Shown piece by piece: positions 3,297 to 9,795 of a stretch of DNA of 64,000 nucleotides. This DNA is from Dehalococcoidia bacterium (GTDB lineage: Bacteria; Chloroflexota; Dehalococcoidia; DSTF01; JACRBR01): assembly GCA_021731085.1 (NCBI GenBank), contig JAKFYB010000002.1, positions 124,001 to 188,000 on the forward strand, in the 5' to 3' direction. The notes beneath the pieces are model-generated. The model was not told where the DNA came from, did not search any database, and was given only the letters and a program-made list of their open reading frames with translations. Position 1 is the first letter of the stretch. Each line of letters opens with the position of its first letter. A program made the position numbers and the translations under genes.

Positions 3297-4228
3297 CGTC
3301 CGAAGAACCGTCCGTCGCGATTATCGTCGTGAACTACAACAGCGCCTGGTTCATCGACGAGTGGTGCGCTTCGCTGCGCGCGATCGACTACGTGAACTGG
3401 CGGCTGGTCATCGTTGATGCGCACTCGAATGACGACTCGCTGGCACGCATCGAGGCAGCGTTTCCTGAGGCGACGTACCTCCGCTGCGGCGACAACGTGG
3501 GCTTTGCGATGGGAGTGAACATCGGCGTGCGGGATGCGGAACAGCGTGGCGATGACTTCGTGTTGTTTCTGAATCCAGACACGGTCGTTGAGGCGAACTT
3601 TCTCACGCGGCTGGTGGAAGTGACGGATGAGCGGACGATGGTCGTGCCGAAGATCCTGCATCTCGACAATGCTCGATCGGACGTGAAACTGATCTCGACG
3701 CACGCGGGTGGTTTCGACTGGCGGCTCGGCCTGTTTCGCGACACCTTTCACGGCCAACCGGAAGGGCCTGCGACGAACGTGCGGCGCGACGGCTTGGAGA
3801 CGGCCTCGTTTGCATGTGCGCTCGTGCCGACGGCCGCGTTTCAGGCTGCGGGAATGCTCGACGAAGCGTTCTTCATGTACTACGAAGAGACCGACTGGTT
3901 GCGGCGCGCGATCGCGAAGGGCTACCGGATCCGCTACGAGCCGTCGTCGCTCATACACCATCGAGAGTCCGGGGCGAGTGGCGGTGGCTGGATGACGCCC
4001 TTCAAGCTCTACTACGCAACACGAAATCGGCTGTATCTCGTGCGCAAGAACTCGCGATCGCGGCGCGACTTCGCGTACTTCACGGCGTACTTCTGGGCGA
4101 CGCGTGCTGGCACGACGGCAAAACTTGTGCGTGCAAAGAAGTGGCGCATGTTGCGGGCGATGTGGCGCGGAGTGCGCGACTACTATCGCGGCAGGATGGG
4201 CCGGACGTACCAGGTGCAGGATCTCTAA
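3293..4228 (+). CDS. Glycosyltransferase family 2, probably a deoxysugar (rhamnosyl) transferase
   Basis: GT-A fold transferase of 311 residues, expected to move the dTDP-activated sugar made by the upstream genes onto a polysaccharide or glycan at the inner face of the membrane. It starts with the GT2 beta strand VAIIVVNYNSAWF, has the metal-binding LNPDT motif (a DxD equivalent) near residue 90, and a FMYYEETDW acceptor-side segment seen in many rhamnosyltransferases. I chose ATG 3293, which overlaps the rmlD stop (ATGA), over an in-frame start at 3248 lying inside rmlD. No transmembrane segment. The acceptor is unknown. Confidence 0.82.
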   Translation: MTSEEPSVAIIVVNYNSAWFIDEWCASLRAIDYVNWRLVIVDAHSNDDSLARIEAAFPEATYLRCGDNVGFAMGVNIGVRDAEQRGDDFVLFLNPDTVVEANFLTRLVEVTDERTMVVPKILHLDNARSDVKLISTHAGGFDWRLGLFRDTFHGQPEGPATNVRRDGLETASFACALVPTAAFQAAGMLDEAFFMYYEETDWLRRAIAKGYRIRYEPSSLIHHRESGASGGGWMTPFKLYYATRNRLYLVRKNSRSRRDFAYFTAYFWATRAGTTAKLVRAKKWRMLRAMWRGVRDYYRGRMGRTYQVQDL

Positions 4229-5715
4229 CGCGTGGCGGCGCCATTCGTCGGGAACGTGAATGTGAACGTTACGCCGCCGGCCGCCTCGTTGGCCGCTTGA
4301 ATCCGGCCGTGATTGAGTTCGACCAGTTCGCGCGCAATTGAGAGACCGAGACCGCTGCCGGAGGCCGTTCTGCGTGCACGATCGCCGCGAAAGAAGCGGT
4401 CGAAGATGCGAGGCAGGTCGTCCTCGTCGATCCTCGAACCCGAGTTGGTAACCGCGCAGAACAACCGGGCGGTGTCCGCGGCAGCAACGACGGTGATGTC
4501 GCCGTTCTTTGGCGCGAATTTCACGGCGTTCTCGAGGACGTTCGTGATGGCGCGCTCGAGCTTGTCAGGATCGGCGTCTTGCAGTACCAAGTCCGGCTGG
4601 ATGTCCAGGCCGACCTCCACATCCTTGGCATGCGCGACGGGCTCAATGCGGCGGACGCAGCGGGCGACAAGCTCGTCGAAGTCGACGTTCTCGCGACGCG
4701 TTATGAGCTGACCCGCATCGATTTCGCCGAGATAGAGGAGGTCTTCAAGCAGTGCGTTGACGTGCTGCGCTTCTTCGCCCAGTACCTGCCCGATGTGCTG
4801 CACGTCGTCCGGTTCCGCCGTGCCGTCGGTTAGGGCGTGGGCATAGCCGGTGATCGACGTCATCGGTGTTTTCAGGTCGTGCGAGACGTTGGCCAGCAGG
4901 GCGCGCATCTGGTGATCGCGCTGGCCGACGCGCTCGGCCATCACCGTGAAGGCGCGAGCGAGGCGGCCGACCTCATCATCGCGGCCAACTTCGACGCGTT
5001 GACCAAAGTCGCCCTGCGCCATTGCTTCGGAGGCGGCGGTGAGGCGACGGACGGGGGTCGACACTTGGCCGGCGAGGAGGATGGCGGGAATCAAGGAGAG
5101 GGGTATCGCGATGAGACCGGCGAGGACGAGTGATGGCAGCACGCCGCGCCAGGCGTCGGCGATCGTGTCGGATTCGACCGCTATGATGATGCGGAACGGC
5201 ACAACGTCGTCGCCGGCAACACCGAATGCATCGAAGTCGGTTCCTGACGACGCTGAGACGAAGGTCAGATCCTGTTCGGGAAAGTCGGCGCTGGGCTGCC
5301 AGGCGACGAAGCCGCGGTTGTAGTCGTTAAGTGACGACTTGGGAATGCGCAAGATGACACCGCCCAATCGTTCCCCCGTGTCGTAGAGCACGACGTCCTG
5401 ACCGGTGACGATGAGGATACGTGCGTCCTTCGCATTCGCGATCTCTTGTAGCGCTTCGGAGAGCTGCTGCGGCCGAGGCGCACCGTTGGACTCCGCGGCA
5501 GGGTCTCTGTCGTTCGCGACCAGCGCAATGAGCGCTTGCTGATAGATAAGGGGCGATGAGGCGGCGATGCGGTCGAGCGCGCGCTGCTCGCGGTCGGCCC
5601 GGTCGCGTGCGACGAATACCGCGCCAGCGAGGCCGAGGGCAATGACGATGATGCCCATCATGGCGAGAACGAGCTTCGTCTGGAAACTGAAGAGGAACGA
5701 GCGCAGGCGTGCCAT
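4225..5715 (-). CDS. Two-component sensor histidine kinase (HAMP-HisKA-HATPase)
   Basis: Membrane sensor of 496 residues paired with the regulator just upstream. Order: short cytoplasmic N-terminus, TM1 (about 13-37), extracytoplasmic sensor region (about 40-180), TM2 (about 193-216), HAMP (about 217-268), and a dimerisation helix with the phospho-accepting His in NVSHDLKTP (His279). An ATPase domain follows with the N box (NVLENAVKFAP) and the G boxes (RIFDRFFRGDRA, GSGLGLSIA). Everything needed for autophosphorylation is present. The sensor region has no motif I recognise, so the signal is unknown. The start overlaps the regulator's stop (TGATG). The 3' end overlaps the convergent glycosyltransferase by 4 bp. 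Confidence 0.93.
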   Translation of the reverse strand: MARLRSFLFSFQTKLVLAMMGIIVIALGLAGAVFVARDRADREQRALDRIAASSPLIYQQALIALVANDRDPAAESNGAPRPQQLSEALQEIANAKDARILIVTGQDVVLYDTGERLGGVILRIPKSSLNDYNRGFVAWQPSADFPEQDLTFVSASSGTDFDAFGVAGDDVVPFRIIIAVESDTIADAWRGVLPSLVLAGLIAIPLSLIPAILLAGQVSTPVRRLTAASEAMAQGDFGQRVEVGRDDEVGRLARAFTVMAERVGQRDHQMRALLANVSHDLKTPMTSITGYAHALTDGTAEPDDVQHIGQVLGEEAQHVNALLEDLLYLGEIDAGQLITRRENVDFDELVARCVRRIEPVAHAKDVEVGLDIQPDLVLQDADPDKLERAITNVLENAVKFAPKNGDITVVAAADTARLFCAVTNSGSRIDEDDLPRIFDRFFRGDRARRTASGSGLGLSIARELVELNHGRIQAANEAAGGVTFTFTFPTNGAATR

Positions 5716-6413
5716 CACGCTGGAACGGCCTCGACGAGGCGGTACCCGCTGCCCCAGACCGTCTCGATCCGGAGCCCGGAGCCTTCGAGCTTACTGCGCA
5801 GGCGCACGATGTGAACATCCACAGTGCGCATGCCGTAGAAGGACGTGCCCCAGACGAGGTCCAGGAGCTTCTCGCGGTCGAGGGTGACATTGAGGAAGCG
5901 GCCAAACGTGGCGAGGAGGTCAAACTCCTTCGGAGTGAGTGTGATGACTTCGCCGCGCACGGTGGCTCGGCGGTTGGGTATGTCCATCCAGAGTTCACCT
6001 GCAGCGATCGTTTCGCTCTGAGGCTCGGCCGTGGTGCGGCTGCGGCGGAGGACGGACTGGACGCGAGCGACGAGCTCGGCCGGGTTAAACGGCTTTGTGA
6101 CGTAGTCATCCGCGCCATATTGCAGGCCGGCGACCTTGTCGACGTCGGACGTGCGGGCGGTGAGGAAGATCACGGGCAATTCACTGCGCTTGCGCAGGTG
6201 GCGAACGATCTGTAGTCCGTCGGGGCCCGGCATCATGATGTCGAGGATGGCGAGATCGAACGCCTCGTCGCGGAGCAGGCGTTCGGCGGCGTCACCATCG
6301 TGTGCGGTCGTCACGTCGTAGCCGGCTTTCCGTAGGTACATGCGGACGAGCTCCGCGATGTTCTTGTCGTCGTCTGCAACCAGAATGCGGGCGAGCCCGT
6401 CGCTGGTGTTCAT
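5715..6413 (-). CDS. OmpR/PhoB-family response regulator
   Basis: DNA-binding regulator of 232 residues, phosphorylated by the kinase encoded immediately downstream. The receiver domain (about 9-122) has the acidic pocket ADDD (13-16), the phospho-acceptor Asp58 in LAILDIMMPG, the conserved Thr in FLTAR and the Lys in YVTKPFN. The C-terminal winged helix (about 135-228) has the usual LTPKEFDLLATF and VWGTSFYGMRTVDVHI segments. A GGAG lies about 11 bases before the ATG, which is long but usable. First gene of a two-gene operon. The target genes cannot be read from sequence. Confidence 0.94.
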   Translation of the reverse strand: MNTSDGLARILVADDDKNIAELVRMYLRKAGYDVTTAHDGDAAERLLRDEAFDLAILDIMMPGPDGLQIVRHLRKRSELPVIFLTARTSDVDKVAGLQYGADDYVTKPFNPAELVARVQSVLRRSRTTAEPQSETIAAGELWMDIPNRRATVRGEVITLTPKEFDLLATFGRFLNVTLDREKLLDLVWGTSFYGMRTVDVHIVRLRSKLEGSGLRIETVWGSGYRLVEAVPA

Positions 6414-6642
6414 AATTGTTACGTCTCCAGTCGGAAATAATCGGCAGGCGACGGTCTGGCGCGTTCGCGCCCGAGTGTCGCACTGCCTCTGACATCCTAG
6501 CGTCAGCTTCGATCCGCATGTGTTGCGGACTCGTTAATCTCGGCCTCGCGAACGACGCCGGAAATTTCTTTCCGGAATTCCTGTTTGGCCCTACAGATTT
6601 TGCGGTGGAAGACGATTGATGTCAGTGAGACAACTGAACAAG

Positions 6643-6757
6643 CTCCGACAAAGGCAAACCCGTCGAAAGGCGGCGACGCAAAGCTACGGGCCTAAGTCCC
6701 TCACCGAGCTGAGGGGGATGGCCGCCGAGCTACCGAAGGCTCCTGAGTGGGTCGGAG
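6643..6757 (+). ncRNA. Cyclic-di-GMP class I riboswitch aptamer (GEMM-I)
   Basis: The segment carries the recognisable GEMM-I core: AAAGGCAAACC (6650-6660), a GAAA tetraloop (6664-6667), GACGCAAAGC (6675-6684), the tetraloop-receptor strands CCTAAG (6691-6696) and GGATGGCC (6716-6723), and GAGCTACC (6727-6734). A 7-bp closing helix P1 pairs CTCCGAC (6643-6649) with GTCGGAG (6751-6757). In this family the RNA folds around one c-di-GMP and controls expression in cis. A terminator follows at once, so control by premature termination is expected. No two-domain or tandem copy is visible. Confidence 0.88.
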
Positions 6758-6758
6758 T

Positions 6759-6795
6759 CTGTAGCCCTCGACCGGCTATAGATCGAGGGTTTTTT
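6759..6795 (+). terminator. Intrinsic terminator of the c-di-GMP riboswitch, with an overlapping alternative hairpin
   Basis: CCCTCGA (6765-6771) pairs with TCGAGGG (6783-6789) and is followed by six T (6790-6795), a standard intrinsic terminator. Overlapping it, CTGTAGCC (6759-6766) can pair with GGCTATAG (6774-6781, one G-U pair). The two helices share bases 6765-6766 and the second sits in the loop of the first, so they may compete. P1 of the aptamer ends two bases upstream, so ligand binding could tip the balance. The direction of the switch is not evident. Confidence 0.85.
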
Positions 6796-7298
6796 GATGC
6801 CCTCCGGCCCCATCGTTAAGACGGAGTCCGGCTGTGGTAAAAGTAGACACGCTTTCCCAGCGCTCACGCCCACAGTGGGCGGGCGCGGCCGAACACATCG
6901 TCCGTCTGATTCACCCAGGTTCCACCAGCGCAGAAGGCCGGGGTCACACTACCCCAACCCCTGACCCTGACCCCCGTGGTCCCGGCCTGAGCACCCCGTG
7001 TGCGCTTCGCTTGTGCAACAGTGCGCCGTCCGTTCCTGAAGACGCGGTCTACCCAGACCGCGAGGACGGTGCCACCGGATCGAGCCGGGGCCTGCAACCC
7101 ACGCGTTAGCTGGTTCACCAGTCAGCTTCGCAATGCCCGTCTTCCTGGACGGGCCCCCGGCTCGATCCGGTCCCACTCATCTGCTGAAACCATCGGCAGT
7201 CAAACCCAAGGCCTGTTGCCACTGCTTGACAGGCCTCGCCTCACATCGAGATACCGTTTCAATACGCGGAAGCTGCTCGGGCCGCAGTCGCGCGACTC
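6796..7298 (+). other. 500-base region without a convincing gene, unusually rich in inverted repeats; candidate structured RNA
   Basis: No reading frame here resembles a protein. Helices that can form: 6867-6872/6876-6881; 6936-6942/6981-6987; a two-part hairpin 7023-7031/7064-7072 capped by 7044-7050/7055-7061; a perfect 17-bp stem 7074-7090/7155-7171 enclosing hairpins 7108-7112/7123-7127 and 7135-7141/7148-7154; and 7209-7216/7229-7236. The 7023-7072 hairpin abuts the 17-bp stem, and the 7135-7154 hairpin abuts its inner end, as in a stacked multi-branch RNA. It does not match RNase P, tmRNA, SRP or 6S RNA as I know them. It could be the leader of the downstream gene, a separate RNA, or DNA-level structure. 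Confidence 0.5.
7074..7171 (+). repeat. 17-bp perfect inverted repeat with a branched 64-base interior
   Basis: Arms 7074-7090 and 7155-7171 are exact reverse complements (ACCGGATCGAGCCGGGG and its complement). The interior holds two more hairpins, at 7108-7127 and 7135-7154. No T-run follows the right arm, so it is not a simple intrinsic terminator. Confidence 0.8.
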
Positions 7299-7326
7299 TT
7301 GACAGGACTTGGGCGAGGCGTATAGT
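7299..7326 (+). promoter_or_regulatory. Near-consensus sigma-70-type promoter of the repeat-protein gene
   Basis: A perfect -35 box TTGACA (7299-7304) and a -10 box TATAGT (7321-7326) are separated by 16 bp. Transcription would start near 7333, giving a leader of about 50 bases. It lies after the riboswitch and the structured region, so the gene below can be transcribed without passing through the riboswitch. Confidence 0.8.
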
Positions 7327-7383
7327 AGCCGCAGAGTCCCGCACGCAACATCTGTAAGTCACTGTTCAGCCCGGAGGTTCCTC

Positions 7384-9795
7384 ATGACAGGGAAGTCGTC
7401 GCTTCGCGCCGCTCTGATCACGTCATCCGTCGTTGGCATGGCCCTGTTTGCCATCATCGTCGGAGCGGCGCTCGCGTTCCAAGCGAAAAACACGGAAGCA
7501 GGCGCTCCCCTACCGTGGGAGATGCACTTCGACTGCAATCCGGCGGTCGGAATCCAGACGTCCTGTACGTATCCTTCGGGCACGTTGACGGTCAACGTCG
7601 ATGCGATCGTCGTCAACGACTCGGCCCCTGCGACGCGCATCGGCGCAGGCGGATTCGATGCGGTGGTGAGTCAACTCGTGCTCGATCCGGTGATTCCGGG
7701 CTCGTGCGACCCATCGGGGTTTGACTGCAACCCGAACTTTGACCAAACAGCTATTACCGGCGCATTCGCGTGCAGTCCGCCAGCGCCCGCGCCCGACGTT
7801 AACACTGATCCGTCGATCGCGGATTCAAAGATTGGCTGCTTCAACGGCGCCGCCGATGGACCCATCATGGCGACAGGCAGCGCGTTGCGCTTCGCGACCG
7901 TCCACTACAACGTCGTGGCCGACGCAACGACGCCTATGACCGTCGTCGAAGGAAACCTCTACGACGAGTCGTTTACAGAACTCCTGTCATGCAATCCCAT
8001 CGTCACGGTGCCGGGAACCTGCTTCGACGCCATCATTACCATTGGAACGCCAACGGCGACTGCCACGGCAACAAACACGCCAGCGAATACACCAACGCCA
8101 ACGCCGACGCCAACGGACACGGCGACGCCAACGGCAACAAACACGCCGACGGAGACACCCACACCGACTGACACTCCCACGAGCACGCCGACGAACACGC
8201 CAACGGCCACCAACACACCCAGTGTTGCGGACTCCGATGGTGACGGCCTGCTGAACGCCCAGGAACTGCTTATCGGTACGGACCCAAACAACCCTGACAC
8301 GGATGGAGACGGGCTTTCGGATGGCGATGAAGTCAACATCCACGGGACCGATCCGCTGAACCCCGACACCGACGGCGACGGTCTTTCGGACAGTCAGGAA
8401 GTGCAGACAACGCTCACCAATCCGCTCAACCCCGATTCCGACGGCGACGGACTGAGTGACGGCGCTGAAGTCAACACGCATAACTCCAACCCCAACGACA
8501 GCGACTCTGACAACGATGGCCTTTCTGACTACGCCGAGGTGATCAACTTTCTCACGAATCCGAACGATGCAGACTCAGACAATGATGGTCTCGACGACTT
8601 CCAGGAGGTCATCACAGGGACGAACCCGAATGACGCTGACACAGACAACGACGGACTCTCAGACGGAGATGAAGTCCTTGTTCACGGCACGTCGCCCTTC
8701 CTTGCTGACACGGATGGCGACGGGCTGTCCGACCCCACGGAAATCAACGTCACCAACACCGACCCGACGGACGCGGACACAGATGGCGACAGCCTCAACG
8801 ACGGATCGGAAGTGAACACGCACAACACGGATCCAAACGACCCCGACTCGGACGGAGACACCCTCACGGATGGCGCTGAGGTGCTGACCTACACGAGTAA
8901 TCCGAACAACACGGACACGGACGGAGACACGCTGCCGGACGACTACGAAGTCACGAACTCATGCCTCAACATCATCGTCGCCGATGGTGCTGGTGATCCC
9001 GATGCGGATGCTGTAACGAGCGTCGGCGAGTTCGGCCAGGGCACACTGCCCTGCGATCCCGACACAGACGACGACGGCTTTAAGGACAAGCCTTCAGCTT
9101 CGCAGGCATACATCAATTCGAACGTTAACGAGGACAACTGCATCCTCATTGCCAACCCGGGGCAGCTGAACAACGATGGTGATCGCATCGACCTGCCGCC
9201 GGCGTTCGCGTTCGACGACCTGACGAACCCGAACTCGGACGCGACCGGTGACGAATGCAACCCTGACGACGACAACGACGGCCTTTCGGACGTATTGGAG
9301 ACGAGCGGGCCACCGTGTGCGAGCGCGACCGGTCCGACGAACCCGGCGCTGCTCGACACTGATCAGGATCGGACGCACGACGGGTTTGAGTGCCAGTTCA
9401 ACACTGACCCGACCAACCCTGCGAGCCGACCTCCGAACGTGATTCCACCGGATCCCGACAACGACGGACTGCCGACGCTGCTCGAGGCGATCCTCGGGAC
9501 GAACCCGAACGACCCTGACTCCGACAATGACGGATCTCGCGATGGCACCGAAGTGCGGTCATACAACAGCAACCCGAACGCGCTGGATTCTGACGCTGAT
9601 GGGTGCCGCGATGCGAAGGAAATCGCGAGCGTCAACTTTGACCGCGTGGTGAACGTCGCAGATCTCGGGTTGCTCGCAAGCAATTATGGTCCGTCGAGTA
9701 GTCCATCCTATGTTCTGGCATTCGACGTGAATAAGGACGGCTCGATCAATTCGGCCGATATGGGCTTCCTCGCCAGCCAGTTCGGTGTCTGCTAG
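7384..9795 (+). CDS. Secreted thrombospondin type 3 repeat protein with C-terminal dockerin-like domain
   Basis: Exported calcium-binding protein of 803 residues. Order: signal peptide (about 1-38, hydrophobic core [19 protein letters not shown]); a Cys-containing beta-rich domain (about 40-220) I cannot name with certainty but which resembles cohesin-like modules; a T/P-rich linker (about 222-281); about ten or eleven 22-23-residue DxDxDGxxD repeats (about 283-525); further scattered DxDNDG units; and a final dockerin-like segment (about 745-803) with paired DxNxDGxxNxxD calcium loops ([12 protein letters not shown]). The ATG at 7384 follows GGAGG (7373-7377) and opens the signal peptide directly. 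Possible roles are surface layer, adhesion or scaffold. Its position behind a c-di-GMP riboswitch fits a surface or biofilm function. The exact ligand is unknown. Confidence 0.85.
8230..8958 (+). repeat. Tandem 66-69-bp repeats encoding calcium-binding TSP3 units
   Basis: About eleven degenerate copies encode a 22-23-residue unit of the form D[TS]D[GN]DGLSDxxEVxxxxTxPxxx. The copies differ at many third positions, so the array is old and maintained by protein selection. The preceding 8047-8218 is low-complexity ACG/CCA coding sequence for the Thr/Pro linker. Confidence 0.9.

Follow-up and report, generated by a model that had tools for sequence, protein, structure and literature searches.

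A candidate c-di-GMP-gated structured RNA with an overlapping short reading frame in a family of Dehalococcoidia

The window considered here, i.e., the whole 64,000-nucleotide stretch of contig JAKFYB010000002.1 that was analysed, carries a c-di-GMP-I riboswitch followed on the same strand by a group of conserved helices, a short open reading frame (ORF) that overlaps them, and a gene for a TSP3/dockerin protein. On the minus strand, positions 4225-6413 hold genes for an OmpR-type response regulator and a histidine kinase, divergent from the riboswitch. The contigs belong to Dehalococcoidia/Chloroflexota MAGs. The features of the locus, with the basis of each assignment, are the following:

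6642-6757, plus strand: c-di-GMP-I (GGC) riboswitch aptamer including the P1 stem (RF03167 match; P1 is an inverted repeat)
6758-6795, plus strand: expression platform, a terminator with a competing antiterminator (reading of the sequence; platform folds of all six copies)
6823-6826, plus strand: Shine-Dalgarno-like GGAG ahead of the short ORF (GGAG or GGGG at the homologous place in all six copies)
6834-7109, plus strand: short ORF with a GTG start, 91 codons and a stop (same-phase ORF in all six; fast-evolving, product unnamed)
6936-6987, plus strand: hairpin H3, a 12-bp stem (6936-6947/6976-6987) with a 28-nt C-rich loop, ACTACCCCAACCCCTGACCCTGACCCCC (covariation)
6991-7003, plus strand: hairpin H4, GCAC/GTGC in the window (individual folds and alignment reading)
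7004-7022, plus strand: conserved linker, consensus GCTGCGTNTGAGCGAANTGGCG in the relatives (two alignments)
7023-7072, plus strand: two-part hairpin H5, 7023-7031/7064-7072 and 7043-7050/7055-7062 (sequence; folds of all six copies, with differing arm sequences)
7074-7171, plus strand: domain H6, a perfect 17-bp stem (7074-7090/7155-7171) around hairpins 7103-7131 and 7135-7154 (covariation; the inner hairpin pairs in all six)
7299-7326, plus strand: separate promoter of the TSP3/dockerin gene, TTGACA-16-TATAGT (11/12 consensus match; a boundary, outside the RNA)

On sequence grounds, the 5' part of the locus is a member of the c-di-GMP-I riboswitch class (RF01051 / RF03167). The Rfam covariance model RF03167 matches 6644-6738 with 67 bits (gathering cut-off 59, E 1.2e-13), and the aptamers of five relatives score 58-76 bits with RF03167 or RF01051, each above the cut-off of its own family. 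An inverted-repeat search places the P1 arms at 6642-6649/6751-6757, with a possible lengthening to 6638-6649/6751-6762. Downstream of the aptamer, the terminator pairs CCCTCGA (6765-6771) with TCGAGGG (6783-6789) and ends in TTTTTT (6790-6795), while the competing antiterminator of the window pairs TCTGTAGCC (6758-6766) with GGCTATAGA (6774-6782) over 9 bp; its 5' arm shares bases with the extended P1. In the platform folds, five of the six copies (the window and the relatives L003 to L006) form a terminator-like hairpin followed by a T-rich tail; in the sixth, L002, the tail is degenerate and the antiterminator less evident than elsewhere. Because all six copies lie behind a c-di-GMP-I riboswitch, five have a terminator-like hairpin, and an antiterminator can be drawn in the window, gating of the candidate RNA by c-di-GMP is well founded, and control of read-through is predicted with high confidence.

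In five of the six genomes, all but L006, the 3' strand of P1 (6751-6757, GGGTCGGAG) is also able to base-pair with CTGACCC within the loop of H3 (6958-6973). This pairing of loop and P1 strand (GGGUCGGAG) is among the stronger intramolecular duplexes in those five, and it proves little because the H3 loop is so C-rich.

The original prediction described a candidate new structured RNA spanning 6796-7298, with a perfect 17-bp stem and neighbouring hairpins among its helices. These helices are present in the sequence and in a repeat search: the 5' arm of H6, ACCGGATCGAGCCGGGG at 7074-7090, has its exact complement at 7155-7171, and as an inverted repeat the stem extends to 22 nt at 91%. The enclosed hairpin H7 (7135-7154; GCCCGTC/GACGGGC at 7135-7141/7148-7154) directly abuts the 3' arm of H6, with no nucleotide between them, just as had been noted. 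The two-part hairpin H5 exists as well, with an outer part of 9 bp including one G-U (GCGCCGTCC/GGACGGTGC) and an inner part of 8 bp (CGCGGTCT/AGACCGCG), not the 7 bp first counted. It had been held that such a 17-bp stem is hard to obtain by chance; roughly, fewer than 1e-4 perfect inverted repeats of 17 bp are expected in 500 nt with the base composition found here. Folding was compared with dinucleotide shuffles, a check that had been proposed: 6796-7298 folds on the plus strand with -219.9 kcal/mol versus -187.0 +/- 7.3 (z -4.5, 0/100 shuffles as stable), and on the minus strand the z-score is -3.3.

The window element is almost certainly a structured RNA, with a conserved core that comprises about 240 nt, at approximately 6936-7174 (z -4.8 on the plus strand and -3.7 on the minus strand, against shuffled sequence). 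This is the part of the proposed span that stands; positions 6823-6935 are better read as the short ORF, missed originally, more than as a fold, and 7175-7298 lie outside the core and run into the TSP3 gene's own promoter. A scan of the window region found no U-tract terminator behind H6. On the minus strand, the H3 loop (6958-6973, GGGGTCAGGGTCAGGGGTTGGGG) has a G-quadruplex-like pattern.

Diverged copies were found by blastn against 60 relatives in five other genomes, all from one Dehalococcoidia family, and every copy, the window's included, has a c-di-GMP-I aptamer upstream. Six of the eight genomes of the family thus carry the element, one copy each, and the two without it are 72% and 76% complete. 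Among the 48 c-di-GMP-I riboswitch matches in 15 of the 18 genomes of the order, exactly six have the element behind them, and it is absent behind the other approximately 42 loci. A covariance model of H3 and the linker recovers the six copies with E-values of 1e-18 to 1e-22 in 393 genomes of the class and otherwise gives only weak matches there; no new copies came from 400 genomes of the phylum, viral contigs, or a GTDB-representative genome collection of 84,980 species. The next-best match of the model (G131, L090) was rejected, as it lies in an integron attC array and shares only a common general palindrome, and the remaining weak matches are attributed to chance. At L090 (G131:C21, in a Dehalococcoidia genome), positions 90-130 and 907-945 of the locus look like part of a cassette array of an integron, with GTTAGGC in the attC-like sites; the likeness to H3 and the linker is superficial.

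Each of the six copies, folded alone, shows the same order of elements: H3 with its large C-rich loop, the small H4, the two-part H5, and the long H6 around one or two hairpins. Plus-strand z-scores range from -4.1 to -6.2, with 0/100 shuffles as stable for each copy, and the minus strand is weaker in all of them. In H3, whose loop is the best-conserved stretch of the element, 91.7% of the cells in 12 pairs are paired across the six sequences and four pairs show double changes; in 500 shuffles neither the pairing nor the covariation ever gets as high as observed, and only one of the 720 permutations of the arms reaches the observed pairing. In H6, 101 of 104 cells are paired (97%), with 13 double-change cells in eight pairs, and the true assignment of 3' to 5' arms is unique among the 720 permutations. 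The distal half of H6 illustrates this, with GCCGGGG/CCCCGGC in the window, GCTTTGGG/CCCAAAGC in L005, GCCTAGG/CCTGGGC in L003, and GCCGGGAG/CTCCCGGC in L006. For the permutation test the arms of H3, H6, and H7 were aligned by hand, and since H7 was picked as the best local hairpin its numbers are flattering, while H3 and H6 are independent of that choice. H4, a hairpin of 4-6 bp at an almost constant place in all six copies, was left out of the covariation count because its register varies. Over the counted helices, G-U pairs outnumber C-A mismatches by 11 to 2 (one-sided sign test about 0.01), so that the plus strand is the likely RNA. The 3' domain (H3, H4, H5, and H6) is conserved as RNA.

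Regarding known classes, a search of Rfam 15 over 6500-7420 with E-values up to 10 returned the aptamer as the only significant match, with everything else far below its gathering score, and in the whole window nothing except RF03167 reaches the Rfam threshold. The original prediction had recognised no RNase P, tmRNA, or 6S RNA motifs among the helices. In the searches, neither RNase P RNA nor tmRNA matches at the element, their genomic copies being located elsewhere (G000:C16 and G000:C14, respectively), and 6S RNA had no match in the eight family genomes, a search that alone could miss a very divergent 6S, while the fold consists of five separate helical elements instead of one long bubble hairpin. 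There was likewise no Rfam match to ribozymes or group I introns, and the GTTRRRY core site of integron attC, present in the look-alike L090, is absent from the element. The literature searched contained no c-di-GMP-I riboswitch with such an RNA behind it. With homologues found, helices that covary, as had been proposed for checking, and no matching Rfam family, the element is, as far as these tools can tell, new as an RNA family and in its ligand and overlapping ORF, and known in kind, namely as a riboswitch-gated RNA.

We favour, with a probability of roughly 0.55, the reading that the locus encodes a stand-alone, c-di-GMP-gated structured RNA that may act in trans and is a candidate for dual function. 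In all six copies GGAG or GGGG lies 3-9 nt ahead of an ATG or GTG, between the terminator and H3. From this start an uninterrupted frame reaches the invariant C-rich loop in constant phase and reads it as TPTPDPDP or close variants; every distance from start to loop (117, 141, 147, 120, 120, and 126 nt) is divisible by three. Shuffled sequences put the chance of such an ORF at 0.03-0.05 per sequence, and the product over six sequences, about 3e-9, ignores common descent and the authors' choice of the Shine-Dalgarno sequence. Start, Shine-Dalgarno sequence, and reading phase are thus conserved as in coding genes, and translation of the ORF is probable from these signals. With its constant phase, the ORF hints that the transcript may, in part or more, be an mRNA, which counts against a stand-alone regulatory RNA.

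Taken further, these signals would make the transcript a c-di-GMP-controlled mRNA for a fast-evolving small protein of 78-125 aa, with the helices secondary and serving, for example, stability or translation control, and ALRLSE-like residues do recur behind the loop. The pattern of change argues otherwise. Substitutions in the ORF lack the codon-position bias of the SRPBCC control gene (0.47/0.49/0.48 versus 0.22/0.17/0.44), and the excess of third-position change typical of coding genes was not found. The peptides are nearly unalignable and stop at unrelated places; in L003 an insertion of 5 nt shifts the frame right behind the loop. In most sequences the loop nucleotides are identical even at synonymous sites, and H6 lies mostly past the stop codon in the window, L004, and L005. 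Pfam and NCBIfam gave no match for the five orthologues scanned (the window's included, L005 left out). A small-protein mRNA is thus unlikely, and selection probably acts mainly on the RNA, with translation probably occurring as well.

The ORF might instead be a sensor and not a product. In a translation-coupled attenuator, ribosomes translating the ORF would unfold H3 or cover the C-rich stretch, and their loss would let a Rho-type factor, or refolding, end transcription. This would fit a reading phase conserved without the peptide, and the missing U-tract terminator after H6. Rho prefers C-rich, G-poor RNA, and the loop has this composition. Against it, no conserved gene follows that could be controlled, and the exact loop sequence is kept beyond the needs of a rut site, within a stable, covarying hairpin; we regard such an attenuator as quite improbable.

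The gene behind the element, named by eye from its translation like the other neighbours, varies: its product is a TSP3 protein in the window and in L006, SRPBCC-like in three relatives (L002, L004, and L005), and DinB-like in L003. The element would be a long 5' leader of the TSP3/dockerin gene, tying c-di-GMP to that surface protein, if its position directly upstream on the same strand in the window and L006 were decisive, but behind four of the six copies a different gene follows, and TSP3 has its own near-consensus promoter at 7299-7326 (two promoter-like sites in the scanned region versus 0.2 expected), with a similar one in L006 by eye. A leader function is therefore very unlikely, and the link to this gene in the original prediction is incidental. 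Since the downstream genes change and TSP3 has a promoter of its own, the element is most likely its own unit, a conclusion we consider probable. On the upstream side the gene order shows synteny, all genes being divergent: the window and L004 have an OmpR-like regulator next to a kinase, L002 has a kinase-like ORF, and a small secreted protein gene (MAQ...FLDRVAQKLGI) intervenes in several relatives. L082 (G006) likewise shows such a regulator/kinase pair, and L083 (G003) a kinase-like ORF.

Finally, the helices might have arisen by chance from GC-rich sequence or belong to a DNA element such as a repeat, an integron attC, or a G-quadruplex. This reading may appeal to the base composition, the G-quadruplex-like minus strand of the loop, and the resemblance of the linker to an attC half-site (L090). 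Against it stand the z-scores in six diverged orthologues, the compensatory changes, the one-strand G-U excess, the fixed place behind the riboswitch, the single copy, and the absent core site; it is most improbable, and chance helices are rejected on the z-scores and the covariation.

For the stand-alone gated RNA that we prefer, the transcription unit would consist of the c-di-GMP-I riboswitch, the terminator/antiterminator platform, and then an RNA of approximately 350 nt. On binding c-di-GMP, P1 would lengthen at the expense of the antiterminator and transcription would end; avoidance of the terminator would let RNA polymerase read through into the long form. Judging from this geometry, low c-di-GMP would be the condition for making the long RNA, because a ligand-stabilised P1 would favour the terminator. 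The long RNA could then serve as a trans regulator, its C-rich H3 loop being offered to a G-rich translation start region or to a single-strand RNA-binding protein; action in trans is proposed tentatively. An exact 16-nt complement to the core of the loop, sought in the eight genomes of the family, turns up solely on the antisense strand of the element, and complements with two mismatches are scattered and not common to the genomes. As the ORF begins between the terminator and H3 and crosses the loop, the RNA is a candidate for dual function, and translation could open or close H3. More speculative, and rather doubtful at present, is an undescribed dual-function class in which a second-messenger riboswitch gates a trans-acting RNA whose loop is read by ribosomes in a conserved frame, such that c-di-GMP and translation jointly set the availability of the loop.

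A close precedent is EutX/Rli55 of Enterococcus and Listeria, where an AdoCbl riboswitch gates a regulatory RNA and this RNA sequesters a regulator; an RNA of this kind acts in trans and could sit anywhere (PMC5821096). In both systems a terminating/read-through riboswitch controls, or in the present case is predicted to control, the RNA domain behind it and not the adjacent gene: here, an aptamer and a termination platform precede a domain conserved as RNA, its non-coding nature being qualified by the overlapping ORF, and independence from the adjacent gene is indicated by three different downstream genes and the separate TSP3 promoter. The ligand class, structure, and phylum differ, and whereas EutX carries ANTAR-protein sites (dual hairpins), the element is an unrelated fold of several hairpins, one of them with a C-rich loop, and is overlapped by an ORF. 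In Clostridioides difficile, a c-di-GMP-II riboswitch is arranged in tandem with a group I ribozyme (PMC9481103). That arrangement also joins a c-di-GMP aptamer to a second structured RNA domain, but its aptamer is of another class, and no group I intron or ribozyme is matched here. With OLE, GOLLD, ROOL, and raiA/ModT, large RNAs of bacteria whose role is partly known at best, the element shares the nature of a conserved, multi-helix, probably stand-alone bacterial RNA; it differs in being smaller (a core of about 240 nt), predicted to be gated by a riboswitch, limited to one family, and unmatched in Rfam. SgrS/SgrT is a dual-function sRNA with a short ORF on a regulatory RNA, a likeness limited by the fact that here the ORF overlaps the conserved structure and the peptide is not conserved.

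Riboswitches that control a regulatory RNA and not the next gene are rare, and the worked examples found (EutX/Rli55) sense cobalamin; at this locus a common bacterial signal probably switches a regulatory RNA and leaves the gene behind it alone. If transcribed as predicted, the element would extend c-di-GMP signalling by an RNA branch in a poorly studied family of Dehalococcoidia. The conserved reading phase into the loop (window 6823-7109), seen in six genomes together with an unconserved peptide, also makes the locus well suited for learning how to distinguish translation of a leader from production of a small protein.

While the riboswitch of the window heads a structured RNA, other c-di-GMP-I riboswitches of the family precede protein genes, namely those of a FliA-like sigma factor and a subtilisin-like protease. 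The protease gene follows the riboswitch at L036 and L037. A second c-di-GMP-I riboswitch lies ahead of the sigma factor gene at L056, in the window's own genome (G000:C12), and at L040, L043, L050, L051, L055, and L058, which suggests a c-di-GMP-controlled sigma regulon in this Dehalococcoidia family.
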